Assembly (NCBI GenBank): GCA_947502635.1
Contig: CANNAN010000002.1
Location: forward strand, 574,160 to 638,159
DNA from: an uncultured Flavobacteriaceae bacterium
GTDB lineage: Bacteria > Bacteroidota > Bacteroidia > Flavobacteriales > Flavobacteriaceae
DNA length: 64,000 bases
Direction: 5' to 3'
The notes beneath the pieces are model-generated. The model was not told the DNA's origin. It saw only the letters and a list, made by a program, of their open reading frames with translations, and made no database searches. The first letter of the stretch is position 1; every line of letters begins with the position of its first letter. Positions 2,845 to 19,472 of this stretch are shown here, piece after piece. Position numbers and translations under genes: made by a program.

Positions 2845-3061
2845 GGCAATTAATACGACGTTGTGTTGTTCCTGAATTTAATTCGGGATGTAGTAATACC
2901 AGAGTAAATTTGGTATTCCAATGAGAAGCTTTCCTTTTTTCTGTGAAGAAGATTGGGATGCTTTTTTGCTTTAGGACATATTTATTTCTTCTATATCATG
3001 TGACTTTTTATTATACCGTGTGTCTTAATGTTATACTTATATAATAAAACTCTATTTTAAG

Positions 3062-3391
3062 ATGGCAAAATTTGAAATTTACAAAGACAAAAGAGGAGAA
3101 TTTAGATTTAGATTAAAAGCTGGTAACGGTCAAACAATACTTGCTAGCGAAGGTTATGCTGCAAAATCTGGCTGTACCAATGGTATTGAATCTGTAAAGA
3201 AAAACTCAACAGATGATGCAAGATATGAACGTTTAGAATCTAAAGGAGGGAGTCCTTATTTTAACTTAAAAGCAACAAATGGACAAGTGATAGGAACGAG
3301 TGAAATGTACTCATCTACAAGCGGTATGGAGAATGGGATTGCTTCAGTAAAGAAGAACGCATCTGGAGCTAGTATTGACGATTTATCATAG
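3062..3391 (+). CDS. YegP-like DUF1508 protein, two tandem repeats
   Basis: A 109-residue protein built of two DUF1508 repeats. Repeat 1 (about 1-50) has 'FEIYKDKRGEFRFRLKAGNG', then 'ILASEGYAAKSGCTNGIESVKKN'. Repeat 2 (about 54-103) has 'YFNLKATNGQVIGTSEMYSS', then 'GMENGIASVKKN'. Two such repeats are the common YegP architecture, a small alpha/beta dimer-like fold. There is no signal peptide and no catalytic motif. It is monocistronic with a strong terminator. YegP homologues are widespread and functionally uncharacterised, so no role is assigned. Confidence 0.9.
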   Translation: MAKFEIYKDKRGEFRFRLKAGNGQTILASEGYAAKSGCTNGIESVKKNSTDDARYERLESKGGSPYFNLKATNGQVIGTSEMYSSTSGMENGIASVKKNASGASIDDLS

Positions 3392-12049: not shown

Positions 12050-12134
12050 GTTTACACTGCCTTTAGCATTTTTATTTATATTGAAACAAGTTCAGTATAA
12101 GGAGGTTGCAATCAGTCAAATCTTTCCTCTTGTT
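12050..12134 (-). ncRNA. SAM-II-type riboswitch in the metK leader
   Basis: The reverse strand reads GAGG (12129-12126), 'GATTTGACTGATTGCAACC', CTCC, a variable segment, then 'AAAAATGCTAAAGGCAGTG'. This follows the SAM-II core: stem, 'UGAUUU-A-AC', 'AUUGCA', closing strand, then 'AUAAA-UG-GCUAAA' and a G-rich end. Predicted pairings are P1 GAGG (12126-12129) with CCTC (12102-12105), and a pseudoknot ACTG (12113-12116) with CAGT (12056-12059). The variable segment has a small TGAA/TTCA hairpin. The aptamer begins about 12 nt after a -7 box and ends 45 nt before the metK ATG. Recognition is by eye; no covariance search was run. Confidence 0.7.
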
Positions 12135-12145
12135 ATTTGTGTTGG

Positions 12146-12201: not shown

Positions 12202-12233
12202 ATTGGTTATTATGTTTTAATTATAAATATTTG
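12202..12233 (+). promoter_or_regulatory. Candidate ilv operon promoter
   Basis: ATTG (12202-12205), a 20-bp spacer and AATATTTG (12226-12233) differ from the Bacteroidota consensus by one base in each box. The transcript would start near 12240, immediately before the leader-peptide ATG, giving a nearly leaderless small ORF. Confidence 0.5.
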
Positions 12234-12243
12234 TGATAGTCAA

Positions 12244-12306
12244 ATGAAAAAACAAATATTAAATATCGTTTCTATCATGGTCATTGTGATTATTTCACAG
12301 GGATAG
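12244..12306 (+). CDS. ilvL: ilv operon leader peptide (attenuation)
   Basis: A 20-codon ORF (ATG 12244, TAG 12304-12306) encoding MKKQILNIVSIMVIVIISQG. Ten of residues 5-17 are Ile (6), Val (3) or Leu (1), the amino acids made by the operon that follows. The stop codon abuts the 5' strand of a predicted antiterminator, and a classical terminator comes next. This is the layout of ribosome-mediated attenuation: stalling at Ile/Val codons when charged tRNA is scarce would leave 12307-12314 free, while a ribosome at the stop codon would cover it. It is too short for most gene callers. The symbol is by analogy with enterobacterial ilvL. Confidence 0.85.
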   Translation: MKKQILNIVSIMVIVIISQG

Positions 12307-12367
12307 GGAGGGTTATATATAAGTATTATAAATTTTGAAAGCCTTCCTTAAATCGGAAGGCTTTTTT
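12307..12367 (+). terminator. ilv attenuator with alternative antiterminator
   Basis: Terminator arms AAGCCTTCC (12339-12347) and GGAAGGCTT (12355-12363) enclose a 7-nt loop and are followed by a T run to 12367. The competing helix pairs GGAGGGTT (12307-12314) with 12340-12347: eight consecutive pairs, six Watson-Crick and two G-U. It sequesters the 5' arm of the terminator, so the two structures exclude each other. Downstream, 12371-12611 is an untranslated spacer before ilvD with nothing else recognised. Confidence 0.85.
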
Positions 12368-12611
12368 ATTGCATATTTTTTCAATTTTGGACATCATAAA
12401 AATAACAGTTTAAATAGTTGTTTTACAGGTGTTTATGTCATTTTAAGTGGTTGTGGATTTAACCAGAAAAACTAAAGAATAATATAAATAAAAACCGAAT
12501 AAATTAATTTCGAACATTATTTAATGCGGTTATAAGATTTTTAAAAGAATTCTTAAATCGTTAAAGTATTAAATTAAAAAAAGATAAAACGTAAAATTAT
12601 CTGTAATAAAG

Positions 12612-14291
12612 ATGAAGGAACTTAACAAATACAGTAAAGCAGTAACTCAAGACTCAACACAACCAGCGGCACAAGCTATGTTATATGCCATTGGTTTCTC
12701 TGATGAAGATTTTTTTAAGCCCTTAGTAGGTATTGCTAGTACAGGTTACGAAGGTAATCCTTGTAATATGCATTTAAATGATTTAGCAAAACTAGCTAAA
12801 GAAGGTACTAAGAATGAAGATCTAATTGGATTGATTTTTAATACAATTGGGGTCAGTGATGGCATTTCTATGGGAACTCCTGGAATGCGTTACTCGTTAC
12901 CTTCAAGAGATATTATTGCAGATTCTATGGAAACTGTGGTACAAGGCATGAGCTATGATGGTTTAATTACTGTGGTAGGGTGTGATAAAAATATGCCGGG
13001 TGCTTTAATGGCGATGATCCGTTTAAATAGACCTTCAATTTTGATTTTTGGAGGAACTACAGATTCTGGTTGCCATAACGGTAAGAAATTAGATATTGTA
13101 TCATCTTTTGAAGCTTGGGGAAGTAAAGTTGCTGGTACCATGGGCGAAGAAGAGTATAGGAATGTGATAAAAAAATCAATTCCAGGTCAAGGTGCATGTG
13201 GCGGTATGTATACAGCTAATACTATGGCTTCTGCAATAGAAACTTTAGGAATGGCATTACCTTATAATTCATCTAATCCTGCCAGCAGTGAGATTAAAAA
13301 ACAGGAGTCTGTTAGAGCGGGTGAAGCGATGCGTTTATTATTAGAAAAAGATATTAAGCCTTCAGATATTATTACAAGAAAATCTTTAGAAAATGCTATT
13401 AGAGTAGTTACTATTTTAGGAGGTTCTACAAATGCGGTATTGCACTTCTTGGCTATAGCCAGAGCTGCTCAAATAGATTTTACACTTAAAGATTTTCAAG
13501 CTATTAGTGATAGCACACCATTTATCGCCGATTTAAAGCCGAGTGGTAAATATTTAATGGAAGATCTTCATGCAGTAGGTGGTGTTCCTGCGGTATTAAA
13601 ATATTTGTTGAAAAAAGGATTATTACATGGTGATTGTTTAACTATAACAGGAAAAACATTAGCCGAAAACTTGTTAGATGTTGAAGATTTGGCAGAAGGA
13701 CAGGATGTTATAAAACCTTTAGAAAAGCCCATTAAAGCGACGGGACATTTACGTATGCTATTTGGAAATTTAGCGCAAGAAGGAAGTGTGGCTAAAATAA
13801 CAGGAAAAGAGGGCTTGAATTTTGTTGGAAAAGCAAAAGTTTTTGACAGTGAATATGATGCTAATGATGGCATTCGTGATGGAAAAGTAGAGAAAGGTGA
13901 TGTGGTCGTCATTCGTTATGAAGGGCCTAAAGGAGGTCCAGGGATGCCAGAAATGTTAAAGCCTACAGCAGCTATTATGGGTGCTGGATTAGGAAAAGAA
14001 GTTGCTTTAATTACAGATGGCCGTTTCTCAGGAGGGACACATGGCTTTGTAGTAGGGCACATTACTCCTGAAGCACAAGAAGGTGGTACTATTGCTTTAG
14101 TGAAAGATGGTGATATGATTACCATTGACGCCGAAACTAATAGTATTTCTTTAGAAGTTTCAGAGGAAGAATTACAACAGAGAAGACAAAATTGGACAGC
14201 TCCAAAATTAAAATTTGATAGAGGTGTTCTTTATAAATATGCAAGATCAGTATCATCTGCATCTAAAGGATGTGTTACTGATGAATTTTAA
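12612..14291 (+). CDS. ilvD: Dihydroxy-acid dehydratase
   Basis: A 559-residue iron-sulfur dehydratase that converts 2,3-dihydroxy-isovalerate and 2,3-dihydroxy-3-methylvalerate to the 2-keto acids. The three cluster cysteines are Cys51 ('GNPCNMH'), Cys124 ('VGCDKNMPG') and Cys196 ('[12 protein letters not shown]'). The C-terminal '[19 protein letters not shown]' signature is present. It is the first gene of ilvDBNCA, behind the attenuator, with 11 bp to ilvB. Length and motifs are normal. Confidence 0.98.
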
Positions 14292-14302: not shown

Positions 14303-16039
14303 ATGAAAGAAACACAAACAATAGAAACAAGTAAAATTCACACTGCGAAAACAGAGCGCATTTGTGGTAGCGAAGCTATTATAAAATGTTTAATAGCTGA
14401 AGGTGTTGACATCCTTTATGGGTATCCTGGAGGGGCTATAATGCCCGTTTATGACGAATTATATAAATACAGAGGTGAGATTCATCATGTATTAACACGT
14501 CATGAGCAAGGTGCAACTCATGCAGCTCAAGGGTTTGCAAGAATTTCAGGAAGAGTTGGTGTTGCTATGGCAACTTCAGGCCCTGGAGCCACTAATCTTA
14601 TTACAGGAATAGCAGATGCTCAGATTGATTCTACACCATTAGTATGTATTACTGGGCAAGTACCATCTCATTTGTTAGGTACCGATGCTTTTCAAGAAAC
14701 AGATATTATTGGTATTTCTACACCCGTTACTAAATGGAATCATCAAGTAACAAAAGCTTCAGAAATTCCAGAAGTTTTAGCAAAAGCGTTTTATATCGCT
14801 AAAAGTGGTCGTCCAGGACCCGTATTAATTGATATTACAAAAGATGCTCAGTTTGGAGAACTTGATTTTAAATATGAAAAATGTACAGGTGTAAGAAGTT
14901 ATATTCCAACGCCAACTACTAATTTAGAATCAGTAAAGGCTGCTGCCGATTTAATTAATGAGGCTAAAAAACCAATGATCGTTTGGGGGCAAGGTGTTAT
15001 TTTAGGGAAAGCAGAAGAAGAACTAAAAACAGTTATTGAAAAAGCAGGTATTCCTGCAGCTTGGACTATCATGGGGGCTTCGGCCATACCCACATCACAC
15101 CCTCTTAATATAGGTATGGTTGGGATGCATGGAAACTATGCACCAAATAGATTAACAAACGAATGTGATGTGCTTATCGCAATCGGAATGCGTTTTGATG
15201 ACCGTGTTACAGGTAGTTTAGATACGTATGCTAAACAAGCCAAGGTAATTCATTTTGAGATCGACCCATCTGAGGTTAATAAAAATGTACATGCAGATGT
15301 CGCGGTATTGGGTAACTCTAAAGATAGTTTAGCAGAGCTGTTACCATTATTGAAAGAAAATTCTCATAAAGTATGGCTTCAGGAATTTAAAGACCTGTAT
15401 GCTATCGAATTTGAAAAAGTGATTAAAGATGACCTTCATCCAACCAAAGAAGGGTTAACCATGGGTGAAGTTTTAAAAGAAATAAATATACAAAGTGAAG
15501 GTAACGCTGCAATAGTATCAGATGTTGGTCAACACCAAATGATTGCTTGTCGTTATTCAGAATTTAATAAAACAAAAAGTAATATCACTTCGGGTGGTTT
15601 AGGAACTATGGGATTTGCATTGCCTGCTGCTATTGGTGCTAAAATGGCAGAGCCAGGACGTGAAGTCGTAGCCATAATTGGTGATGGAGGTTTCCAAATG
15701 AATATTCAGGAATTAGGAACTATATTTCAACAAAAAGTACCTGTAAAAATTGTGGTACTTAATAATGAGTTTTTAGGAATGGTTCGACAGTGGCAACAAT
15801 TGTTTTTCGATAAGCGTTATGCATCTACAGAAATGACAAATCCTGATTTTGTGACCATTGCTAAAGGGTATCATATAGAAGCAAAACGTGTTACAAAAAG
15901 AGAAGAATTGGCAGATGCCATTAAAGAGATGATAGCGTCTAAAGAGTCTTATTTCTTAGAGGTTTGTGTAGAAAAAGAAGGTAATGTTTTTCCAATGATA
16001 CCTTCTGGAGCATCCGTTTCAGATATTAGATTAAGTTAG
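14303..16039 (+). CDS. ilvB: Acetolactate synthase, large subunit
   Basis: A 578-residue thiamine-diphosphate enzyme that condenses pyruvate with pyruvate or 2-ketobutyrate. The N-terminal domain has the catalytic glutamate region 'RHEQGATHAAQGFAR'. The ThDP/Mg motif is 'GDGGFQMNIQELGT', ending at 'NNEFLGMVRQWQQLFFDKRY'. FAD-binding middle-domain motifs are also seen ('GMRFDDRVTG'). It forms the catalytic part of a holoenzyme with the ACT-domain protein encoded 129 bp downstream. The spacer 16040-16168 holds no further gene. Confidence 0.98.
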   Translation: MKETQTIETSKIHTAKTERICGSEAIIKCLIAEGVDILYGYPGGAIMPVYDELYKYRGEIHHVLTRHEQGATHAAQGFARISGRVGVAMATSGPGATNLITGIADAQIDSTPLVCITGQVPSHLLGTDAFQETDIIGISTPVTKWNHQVTKASEIPEVLAKAFYIAKSGRPGPVLIDITKDAQFGELDFKYEKCTGVRSYIPTPTTNLESVKAAADLINEAKKPMIVWGQGVILGKAEEELKTVIEKAGIPAAWTIMGASAIPTSHPLNIGMVGMHGNYAPNRLTNECDVLIAIGMRFDDRVTGSLDTYAKQAKVIHFEIDPSEVNKNVHADVAVLGNSKDSLAELLPLLKENSHKVWLQEFKDLYAIEFEKVIKDDLHPTKEGLTMGEVLKEINIQSEGNAAIVSDVGQHQMIACRYSEFNKTKSNITSGGLGTMGFALPAAIGAKMAEPGREVVAIIGDGGFQMNIQELGTIFQQKVPVKIVVLNNEFLGMVRQWQQLFFDKRYASTEMTNPDFVTIAKGYHIEAKRVTKREELADAIKEMIASKESYFLEVCVEKEGNVFPMIPSGASVSDIRLS

Positions 16040-16168: not shown

Positions 16169-16702
16169 ATGAACGAAGAAATAAAAACATTAACGATCTC
16201 AATTTATACCGAGAATAATATCGGTTTGCTGAATCGTATCTCAGCAATTTTTCAGAGAAGACATATCAATATTGAAAGTTTAACAACCTCTCAATCGGAA
16301 ATTGAAGGCGTAAATAGATTTGTGGTCGTTGTAAATATCACAGAAACTCAAGCTAAAAAGATTGTAGGACAATTTCAAAAACAAATTGAGGTGATTCGTG
16401 TCTATTATCATACCGATGAAGAAACTATTTATCAAGAATCTGGTATGTTTAAAATAAAATCTGATCTATTATTTAATGAGCCTCAAATTCAGAATATAAT
16501 TAAAGAAAGCAATGCTAGAATAGTCACAGTAAATAAAGAATTCTTTGTTTTAGAAAAATCTGGTAGAAGAAATGAAATAGAATCACTTCGCAGAGATTTA
16601 AACACTTACGGGATCATGCAATTTGTGAGATCTGGTCGTATTGCAGTCACTAAAGAAGAAATGAAAATAACAGAAATGCTTTTAGCATTCAATAATCAAT
16701 AA
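16169..16702 (+). CDS. ilvN: Acetolactate synthase, small (regulatory) subunit
   Basis: A 177-residue protein with an N-terminal ACT domain (about 5-78: '[20 protein letters not shown]', then '[14 protein letters not shown]') and the C-terminal small-subunit domain. It binds valine and gives feedback control of IlvB. I prefer ATG 16169 to the in-frame ATG at 16139 because the family begins a few residues before the ACT strand and the ten extra residues look like untranslated leader. It lies between ilvB and ilvC in the operon. Confidence 0.95.
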
Positions 16703-16718
16703 CAACAATAAAATTAAA

Positions 16719-18194
16719 ATGGGAAATTATTTTAACACACTTTCATTAAGAGATAAATTAGATCAATTGTCAAAGTGTAGATTTATGGATGCTTCAGAGT
16801 TTTCAGATGGAGTAAACGCTTTAAAAGGTAAAAAAATAGTCATTGTAGGATGTGGGGCTCAAGGTCTTAATCAAGGTTTGAATATGAGAGATTCTGGATT
16901 GGATATTTCTTATACTTTACGTGATGCTGCTATCTCTGAAAAACGTGCCTCTTTTGTTAATGCAACAGACAATGGATTTACAGTTGGTACTTATCAGGAA
17001 TTAATTCCAACAGCAGATTTAGTGTTAAACTTAACTCCAGATAAACAACACACAAGTGTTGTAAAAGCAGTAATGCCTTTAATGAAACAAGGAGCTACAT
17101 TATCTTATTCTCACGGTTTTAATATTGTTGAAGAAGGGATGCAAATCCGTAAAGACCTTACAGTTATTATGGTTGCTCCAAAATGTCCTGGATCTGAAGT
17201 AAGAGAGGAGTATAAACGTGGTTTTGGTGTGCCAACACTTATTGCTGTGCATCCAGAAAATGATCCAGAAGGAAAAGGTTGGGCACAAGCAAAAGCATAT
17301 GCAGCAGGAACCGGAGGAGATAGAGCAGGTGTTTTAGCTTCATCTTTTGTTGCTGAAGTAAAAAGTGATTTAATGGGAGAGCAAACCATTCTTTGTGGAT
17401 TGTTACAAACTGGTTCTATCCTTTGTTTTGATAAAATGATTGAAAAAGGTATCGATGCAGGTTATGCTTCTAAACTTATTCAATACGGTTGGGAAACTAT
17501 TACAGAAGGGCTTAAATATGGTGGTATCACCAATATGATGGATCGTTTGTCAAACCCAGCAAAAATTAAAGCTTTTGAATTATCAGAAGAATTAAAAGAT
17601 ATCATGCGTCCATTATTTCAAAAACATATGGATGATATTATGCTTGGAAACTTTTCTAAAGGTATGATGGAAGATTGGGCTAATGATGATAAAAATTTAT
17701 TAGGTTGGAGAGCTGCTACTGGAGAAACAGCTTTTGAAAAAACACCAGCAGGTGATGTTGAAATTTCTGAACAGGAATTTTATGATAATGGTGTATTAAT
17801 GGTTGCTATGGTAAGAGCTGGCGTAGAATTAGCATTTGAAGCTATGACAGATTCAGGAATTATAGATGCTTCTGCTTATTATGAGTCTTTACACGAGACA
17901 CCGCTAATTGCAAACACGATTGCAAGAAGAAAATTATATGAAATGAATAGCGTGATATCTGATACTGCTGAGTACGGATGTTATTTATTCGATCATGCTT
18001 GTAAACCTTTATTAGCAGATTTCATGAAAACTATCGATACTGATGTTATAGGAAAAGCTTATGCTAAAGATAATGGAGCAGGAGTTGATAACGCTAAGTT
18101 AATTGAAGTAAATAAAGCTTTAAGGGCGCATCCGGTTGAAAAAGTTGGTGAGTTTTTAAGAGCATCTATGACGGCTATGAAGCCTATAGTTTAA
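16719..18194 (+). CDS. ilvC: Ketol-acid reductoisomerase (class II, long form)
   Basis: A 491-residue NADPH-dependent enzyme that isomerises and reduces acetolactate or acetohydroxybutyrate. The length and the opening '[20 protein letters not shown]' follow the E. coli-type class II enzyme, with its duplicated C-terminal domain. Many other bacteria carry the ~330-residue class I enzyme. The Rossmann motif '[20 protein letters not shown]' is near 47. Acidic metal-ligand segments ('[13 protein letters not shown]') are present. It is the fourth gene of the operon, with 12 bp to ilvA. Confidence 0.98.
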
Positions 18195-18206: not shown

Positions 18207-19472
18207 ATGAATCAGGAAAACGTCACATATTTTCCTAGTATTAATAATATTAAAGTAGCTGCCGATACTATTAAAAAAGTATCGGCAGTTACGCCTTTAG
18301 GCCCTAACTTAAGGTACTCAAAGCAATTTGATGCTAATATTTTATTTAAACGTGAAGACTTACAGCAAGTGCGTTCATATAAAATTAGAGGCGCCTATAA
18401 TAAAATAAGTTCATTAACTTCTAAGGAGTCTAAAAAAGGCGTGGTTTGTGCCAGTGCAGGAAACCATGCGCAAGGTGTCGCTTTATCTTGTAAATTATTA
18501 GAAATTGAGGGTGTTATCTATATGCCAGCCCCAACACCAAACCAAAAGATAGAACAGGTTAAAATGTTTGGTGGTGATTTTATAGATATTAAACTTATTG
18601 GTGATACGTTTGATGATGCTTACCATGCAGCCACATTAGAATGTGAGCAGTTACATAAAACATTTATTCATCCTTTTAATGATAAAAAAGTTATTGAAGG
18701 ACAGGCTACTGTTGGCTTAGAAATTCTGGAACAATCTACAGAGCCCATCGATTATGTTTTTATTCCCGTAGGAGGAGGAGGATTGGCAGCAGGTTTGTCT
18801 ACTGTTTTTAAACAATTATCACCTCATACAAAGATTATTGGGGTAGAGCCAGAAGGAGCGCCTTCTATGTCTGTTTCTATCAAAAATAATAGAAATACAA
18901 CCTTAGATCAAATTGAAAAGTTTATTGATGGAGCTGCAGTGAAACGCGTGGGAGATTTTACATTTTCTATTTGTAAGGAGAACTTGCATGATATGATAAC
19001 GGTACCAGAAGGGAAGGTATGCGAGACTATTTTAGAACTTTATAATAGGGATGCTATAGTTGTAGAACCAGCTGGAGCTCTGAGTATTTCTGCTTTAGAT
19101 TTTTATGCAGAAGAGGTAAAAGGAAAAAATGTAGTATGTGTTGTTAGCGGGAGCAACAATGATATTACCAGAACGTCTGAAATTAAAGAACGTGCCTTGT
19201 TATTTGCTCAATTAAAACATTATTTTATTGTGAAATTTCCACAACGTGCAGGGGCTTTAAAAGAGTTTGTGGTAGATATTTTAGGAGAGAATGATGATAT
19301 CACCTATTTTCAATATGCGAAAAAAACAAATCGCGAAAATGGGTCTGCTGTGGTTGGTATTCAATTAAAATCTGTTAACGATTTAGAACCTCTTATAACT
19401 AAAATGAAGCTTCGTAATTTTTATGGTGATTATCTAAATGATAAACCCGATTTGTTTCAGTTTTTGGTGTAA
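18207..19472 (+). CDS. ilvA: Threonine ammonia-lyase (threonine dehydratase)
   Basis: A 421-residue PLP enzyme that makes 2-ketobutyrate from threonine, the first step to isoleucine. The PLP lysine is in 'VRSYKIRGAYN', the phosphate loop is 'PVGGGGLAAGL', and substrate motif 'SAGNHAQGVA' is present. A single ACT-like regulatory domain follows from about 330 ('YFIVKFPQRAGALKEFVVDI'), as in the shorter allosteric class. It is the last gene of the ilv operon. Its 3' flank carries an inverted-repeat element. Confidence 0.95.
   Translation: MNQENVTYFPSINNIKVAADTIKKVSAVTPLGPNLRYSKQFDANILFKREDLQQVRSYKIRGAYNKISSLTSKESKKGVVCASAGNHAQGVALSCKLLEIEGVIYMPAPTPNQKIEQVKMFGGDFIDIKLIGDTFDDAYHAATLECEQLHKTFIHPFNDKKVIEGQATVGLEILEQSTEPIDYVFIPVGGGGLAAGLSTVFKQLSPHTKIIGVEPEGAPSMSVSIKNNRNTTLDQIEKFIDGAAVKRVGDFTFSICKENLHDMITVPEGKVCETILELYNRDAIVVEPAGALSISALDFYAEEVKGKNVVCVVSGSNNDITRTSEIKERALLFAQLKHYFIVKFPQRAGALKEFVVDILGENDDITYFQYAKKTNRENGSAVVGIQLKSVNDLEPLITKMKLRNFYGDYLNDKPDLFQFLV

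Follow-up and report, generated by a model that had tools for sequence, protein, structure and literature searches.

A predicted ribosome-mediated transcription attenuator upstream of ilvDBNCA in an uncultured member of the Flavobacteriaceae, and its conservation in relatives

The window, by which we mean the whole stretch of 64,000 nucleotides analysed, contains the genes ilvD, ilvB, ilvN, ilvC and ilvA in this order, all named by NCBIfam models, with metK placed divergently upstream of the ilv leader (Table 1). A SAM-II riboswitch (12053-12135 on the reverse strand, 52.1 bits against a gathering threshold of 44) lies between metK and the divergent ilv leader, which would place two RNA switches of different kinds back to back. 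The leader itself consists of a 20-codon ORF followed by an intrinsic terminator, and direct reading of residues 5-17 of this ORF gives ten Ile/Val/Leu, made up of nine Ile/Val and one Leu, in agreement with the sequence-only reading from which this analysis started, which had also placed its TAG at 12304-12306. The terminator (AAAGCCTTCC-TTAAATC-GGAAGGCTTT, 12338-12364) folds with -14.2 to -16.0 kcal/mol, and was detected by our own finder and by the folding tool, while a generic terminator scan gave no match between 12000 and 12700. Directly after the stop codon, GGAGGGTT (12307-12314) pairs without a gap, and with two G-U pairs included, with AGCCTTCC (12340-12347) in the 5' arm of the terminator, from which hairpin it is separated by an AT-rich stretch of 23 bases. 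Both this pairing and the terminator arm had been pointed out before and were found again here, with the helix even longer than described, since it extends to ten pairs (12305-12314 with 12340-12349, -13.6 kcal/mol). The earlier description of a system compressed to two competing helices is incomplete, as a third, protector helix is present and covaries in relatives; segment 2 also pairs with the Ile/Val codons of the ORF, which gives the ordinary set of 1:2, 2:3 and 3:4 helices. When the full-length leader is folded at equilibrium the terminator is favoured over the antiterminator, and therefore relief of termination must be kinetic.

Table 1. Positions of the genes and predicted leader elements in the window, and of further leaders found elsewhere in the same genome.
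Feature	Position	Strand	Description
-33-like TTG of the predicted leader promoter	12203..12205	+	20 nt ahead of the -7-like box; from sequence only
-7-like box AATATTTG	12226..12233	+	one mismatch to TAnnTTTG; predicted
Leader ORF MKKQILNIVSIMVIVIISQG (then stop)	12244..12306	+	ATG 12244, 20 codons, TAG 12304-12306; control codons Ile/Val, codons 5-17
Segment 1, 5' side of protector	12265..12276	+	inside the Ile/Val codons; pairs with 12302-12313, -11.8 kcal/mol
Segment 2	12302..12314	+	last codon, stop and next 8 bases; partner of segment 1 or segment 3
Segment 3, 5' arm of terminator	12338..12347	+	antiterminator target
Intrinsic terminator	12338..12367	+	stem 12338-12347/12355-12364, loop 12348-12354, Ts to 12367
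Conserved, almost gap-free block	12388..12512	+	TGGACATCAT 12388-12397 to TTAATTTCG 12504-12512, between terminator and ilvD
ilvD, dihydroxy-acid dehydratase	12612..14291	+	TIGR00110, 731.9 bits
ilvB, acetolactate synthase large subunit	14303..16039	+	TIGR00118
ilvN, acetolactate synthase small subunit	16172..16702	+	TIGR00119, above cut-off; start codon chosen by hand, ORF listed from 16139
ilvC, ketol-acid reductoisomerase	16719..18194	+	NF003557, TIGR00465
ilvA, threonine ammonia-lyase	18207..19472	+	NF006390, TIGR02079
His leader ORF and terminator	L200 ~2993-3110	+	
Trp leader ORF and terminator	L201 ~785-664	-	
Phe/Tyr leader ORF and terminator	L205 ~890-757	-	

None of the Rfam amino acid leader families (Leu, Thr, His, Trp, Phe) reached its gathering threshold in the window, the lone leader match at E-values up to 5 being Phe_leader with 24.9 bits against a threshold of 55, and the T-box model was absent from the Rfam hits of the window. 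A match to BTnc231, a Bacteroides sRNA family, scored 16 bits where 80.4 are needed and was taken as chance.

We then searched the sequences upstream of ilvD in 190 regions, not all of them independent, which came from 80 public contigs, 30 family loci and 80 more family genomes. The public contigs were the best 80 of 595 confirmed stretches from one IlvD scan, while the family search covered 299 genomes, 235 with IlvD, of which 30 loci were taken, the window itself among them (as L082); the 80 further genomes were taken by coordinate in listing order down to G294, with lower-ranked genomes left out. Passed over in this sampling were G008 (partial gene), G215 and G057 (near contig ends) and the second match in G272. 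Regions were scored for a unit of an ATG-started ORF of 10-40 codons, with at least 30% and at least five I/L/V residues, and a stop codon 10-50 nt before a terminator. Such units were found upstream of ilvD in 86 of the 190 regions (100 units, the public part being the best 80 of 595), compared with 3/190 on the reverse strand, while five dinucleotide shuffles gave 1, 0, 0, 0 and 1 of 190. With a stricter rule and up to 2 kb of sequence, 43 of these best 80 of 595 public contigs contained a unit, versus 0/80 on the reverse strand. In 16 of those 43 the unit is located 949-1429 bases upstream of ilvD, and in all 16 of these, again from the best 80 of 595 stretches, the intervening gene encodes a class IV aminotransferase of the ilvE type, therefore the unit stays at the front of the gene group; this arrangement is seen in Tenacibaculum, Myroides, Chryseobacterium, Fulvivirga, Chitinophaga and others. 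Both same-genus genomes sampled (L083, L084) have the unit. No unit was found within ~800 bases of ilvD in 104 of the 190 regions, some of which have another gene directly before ilvD and others not (e.g. L090, L091, L093).

The 100 units comprise 97 distinct ones, from which L024 and L066 (Leu-rich) and L077 (not leader-like) were dropped by eye to leave 94, although these doubtful three are still counted within the 86/190. Over the 94 units, the combined share of Ile and Val is 51-76% at every position between -13 and -4 relative to the stop codon and at most 22% at positions -1 to -3, with Leu accounting for at most 9% from -4 to -13. The search rule took account of I/L/V content, but neither of the bias for Ile/Val over Leu nor of the position of these codons, and the control codons are placed where the switch needs them. 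Among the Val codons of the 94 leaders GTC is used in 115 of 244, versus 3 of 34 in the ilvD gene of the window, an excess which may be caused by RNA pairing or by codon rarity.

The terminators of the 94 units fall into class A (43 units, GCCTTCC...GGAAGGC, with a segment 2 like GGAATGGTAT), class B (31 units, CCTGTATC...GATACAGG, with a segment 2 like GATACAG that overlaps the stop codon or directly follows it) and a remainder with other arms (20 units). The window contains one gate of class A, and a second ORF and terminator, as expected for tandem gates resembling those of mgtCBR, is absent from its leader. Two units in series were found in 14 of the 86 positive regions (L006, L014, L027, L029, L095, L110, L114, L115, L125, L141, L166, L167, L170 and L182), with class A preceding class B in 11 of them, and further tandem pairs precede the ilvE-type gene in L007, L036 and L049 (stricter scan) and in L017, L045 and L048 (looser scan). 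The contig with two units at L029 is labelled as an Ignavibacteriae MAG, and this MAG is possibly misbinned. In the close relative L086, with an IlvD 91% identical, the class A terminator is kept with just a short GTG-started Ile/Val ORF, possibly representing decay of the attenuator.

Covariation was assessed by asking how well the segments of a unit pair with each other as compared to partners exchanged among the 94 distinct units in 5000 re-dealt sets, a procedure which leaves kinship in. For the 2:3 duplex the units' own partners gave -9.61 versus -6.84 +/- 0.23 when re-dealt, and for the 1:2 helix, in which segment 2 pairs with the body of the ORF, the values were -10.44 versus -8.30 +/- 0.23; neither was reached in any of the 5000 sets. 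Within class A, class B and the other arms, five of the six tests again gave 0/5000 and the 1:2 helix in class B gave 20/5000, and here the related partners inside a class should make the test harder. Controls taken from four other places, namely ahead of the ORF, its initial 26 nt, its later part and beyond the terminator, showed no excess (z -1.3 to +2.9), while the reversed post-stop piece gave a small excess (-6.71 versus -6.03, 0/5000) with z -3.9 as compared to -11.8 for the real piece. A MAFFT alignment was given 27 class A units, out of 34 references, and pairs were counted on per-unit segments because this alignment misplaced segment 2 in some rows. For these column counts, segment 2 was placed by its likeness to a consensus with its partner ignored, a rule which included 41 of the 43 class A units and visibly misplaced a few of them. 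In the 1:2 helix of these 41 units, 24 cells were changed on both sides versus 6.9 +/- 2.5 when swapped (0/5000), 80% of cells paired versus 76% (0/5000), and there were 21 further pair types versus 15.7 (55/5000). Where the arm departs from class A, as in L014, L029 (first unit), L034, L040 and L131, the post-stop segment differs to match. Among the 20 units whose arms are unusual, seven (L029 second unit, L057, L064, L068, L069, L079 and L160), several of these from Flavobacterium, pair poorly with their own arm, each being beaten by at least 45 of the 94 arms.

Sequestration of the 5' arm of the terminator by upstream RNA was calculated for the moment before the 3' arm is made, with the ribosome assumed to cover 12 nt past the first base of the A-site codon. 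For the window this predicts sequestration of the arm with P 0.97 as long as the ribosome has not passed codon 17, which is the last Ile, falling to 0.84 at codon 18, 0.38 at codon 19, 0.09 at codon 20 and 0.09 at the stop codon. Across the 94 units the calculated P is 0.81 with the ribosome at an I/L/V codon, counted from codon 5 onwards, and 0.17 at the stop codon, and sequestration by the stalled configuration exceeds that at the stop in 94/94. Shuffling of the linker lowers the stalled value from 0.81 to 0.53, with 54 of the 94 units beating 29 or all 30 of the shuffles made from them, while the 2:3 sequestration in the window is matched by 29 of 1000 shuffles of the linker between ribosome and hairpin; the window is thus suggestive on its own and convincing together with its relatives. 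Without a ribosome, P is 0.97 in the window and 0.51 on average over the 94 units, therefore part of the family is predicted to terminate in the absence of translation, which is not clear for the window.

With regard to the promoter of the leader, the TTG and TAnnTTTG pair and its spacing are what we take to be the flavobacterial arrangement. The transcription start site would be at ~12238, ~6 nt ahead of the leader ATG, as predicted from the two boxes, and many of the 27 aligned class A relatives show, by eye, a TATTTG-like word ~7-11 nt ahead of their leader ATG. The exact TAnnTTTG, given as the flavobacterial -7 box in passages of PMC9723704, is present in 19 of the 94 units within the 45 nt ahead of the ATG (not in the window itself) versus 3.5% of 1448 control stretches, and because only these 19 have the exact box the leader promoter stays a prediction. 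A scan with the sigma-70 consensus gave five promoter matches versus 4.5 in shuffles, hence no excess. The sequence-only reading had the leader ORF starting almost at the transcript end, which agrees with the predicted promoter (TTG-N20-AATATTTG), although the start site is itself predicted only. Its proposed logic, with a ribosome at the stop codon masking the segment and permitting termination and one stalled upstream freeing it, is backed by the conservation, the covariation of the 2:3 helix and the masking calculation, and the comparison of regions upstream of ilvD in relatives, which it had suggested, shows conserved Ile/Val codons and covariation of the 2:3 and 1:2 helices.

The same finder was used for other amino acid biosynthetic genes in the same genome, named by Pfam hits, and this gave leaders with terminators before hisG (MNFIQLHHHFHICSQAN), a trpE-type gene (MNTILNNTWWWSFRNLHS) and a prephenate dehydratase gene (MTTTVYYTYFNNWFYFFFSKRNETLYV). 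The distance to the terminator is 31 nt for His, 35 nt for Trp and 22 nt for Phe, and the best antiterminator partners have -10.5, -6.1 and -9.9 kcal/mol, respectively. Going from the control codons to the stop, the calculated sequestration changes from 0.87 to 0.45 for His, from 0.58 to 0.04 for Trp and from ~0.76 to 0.19 for Phe, the His leader being less clear-cut as its arm is half sequestered at the stop. No fitting leader with terminator was found in this genome at the two homoserine dehydrogenase genes and a leuC-like gene (L204:4351, named by eye beside an Aconitase_C hit).

Together, the conservation in relatives, the covariation of the 2:3 and 1:2 helices and the predicted masking switch just after the last Ile codon make it very probable that 12238-12367 constitutes a classical ribosome-mediated transcription attenuator of the trp/ilv type controlling ilvD-B-N-C-A. 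Three other explanations were weighed against this. AT-rich DNA easily provides ORFs rich in ATT and GTT, and the 64-kb window contains one other ILV-rich ORF with a terminator on the forward strand (26060, MIFYVVFLGIMV) and none on the reverse strand, hence a plain terminator could have come to lie behind an Ile/Val-rich ORF by chance; this has next to no probability and is already refuted by the relatives, with 86/190 regions versus 0-1/190 when shuffled and 3/190 on the reverse strand, and with covarying helices. Like type I toxin-like membrane peptides, the leader peptide is short, hydrophobic and lysine-rich at its start, and the ORF could thus encode a peptide acting itself, with the terminator merely ending the transcript. 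We consider this very improbable, since the peptide drifts in sequence, yet its Ile/Val content, the position of these codons relative to the stop and the pairing to the terminator arm are kept, and the His, Trp and Phe/Tyr leaders at matching genes in the same genome also argue against a self-acting peptide.

A more serious contender, although still an unlikely one, is that the attenuator is real but that ilvD is mainly expressed from a second promoter in 12388-12512, with the attenuator setting only part of the expression. This block follows the pattern TG(A/G)ACATCAT, ~114 nt and TTAATTT(C/A/T)G (the last box in most rows) with near-fixed spacing over ~125 nt, and it aligns in 30 distinct loci out of 31 picked by a motif word, 12 of which are without a strict attenuator unit (L004, L010, L042, L091, L100, L105, L113, L123, L128, L129, L137 and L143). 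The genome has a single match to the pattern of its first part, and its last box resembles the TAnnTTTG described in passages of PMC9723704, but by eye there is no -33-like TTG at the proper distance in the window, and loci with class B only are absent from the 30. A regulator site for another step is as good a reading of the block as a second promoter, and terminator arms covarying with the leader would be pointless if every transcript began downstream.

In the attenuator as we propose it, transcription would start just before the ATG and the leader would be translated, and slowing of the ribosome at the Ile/Val codons would keep segment 2 accessible for pairing with the terminator's 5' arm, and with the antiterminator formed RNA polymerase is predicted to read on into ilvD and the downstream genes, which are presumably co-transcribed. 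With charged Ile-tRNA and Val-tRNA available, translation would proceed to the stop codon and the ribosome would cover segment 2, allowing the terminator to form, while in an untranslated leader segment 2 could pair with segment 1 and leave the terminator free, something which is only weakly predicted in the window. Such an attenuator is probably widespread in the Bacteroidota, where it would explain the sensing of Ile and Val in a large group of environmental bacteria and would provide ready reporters. More tentatively, and with somewhat less than an even chance, it belongs to an old, phylum-wide set of leader attenuators for branched-chain genes, originally with two Ile/Val gates in series behind one near-leaderless promoter, of which the window has kept one. 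Ribosome-mediated attenuation requires a ribosome close behind RNA polymerase, and if this phylum-wide set is real, tight coupling of transcription and translation would be required despite the non-reliance on Shine-Dalgarno sites; translation start in these bacteria is said in passages of PMC9723704 to depend on other signals. With the covariation at ilv and the His, Trp and Phe leaders in one genome, coupling in the Bacteroidota would become directly testable.

Leader-peptide attenuators are known from the enterobacterial ilvGMEDA, ilvBN, leu, trp, his and phe operons, and the leader described here is like these in having a short ORF with codons for the products of the pathway, predicted protector, antiterminator and terminator helices, and a stop codon just before segment 2. 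It differs from them in sequence and phylum, in having segment 1 within the run of control codons in the window, in being dominated by Ile and Val with Leu scarce, and in its predicted start only ~6 nt before the ATG. Our literature search found no description of an ilv attenuator in the Bacteroidota by title, start of abstract or retrieved passages, while two comparative studies (Vitreschak 2004 and Lopatovskaya 2010) are reported to have covered the Bacteroidetes/Chlorobi. The Flavobacterium psychrophilum transcriptome, from the same family, provides strong clues for leader-peptide attenuation before amino acid biosynthesis operons, proposed there from transcript maps (passages of PMC9723704), although the passage concerned names no operon and gives no alternative structures, and words beginning with 'ilv' are absent from the main text. 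The statement in the sequence-only reading that no characterised case was known in this family thus has to be qualified, as leader-peptide attenuation had already been proposed there. Short ORFs reminiscent of leader peptides are also mentioned for Bacteroides in a passage of PMC7366714. The ilvBNC attenuator of Corynebacterium glutamicum (PMC11857589) likewise has branched-chain genes under a leader attenuator, in a model with three hairpins, in another phylum and with another gene order, the likeness being one of description. The Salmonella mgtCBR leader (PMC3641672) combines two attenuators and their short ORFs, like relatives of the window, but its gates sense different signals (ATP and proline), whereas in the relatives both leaders are Ile/Val-rich, and the window has a single gate. 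The type of attenuator is thus a known one, and the more unusual part is the serial gates of the relatives, a design in which a single leader would read the same signal twice.
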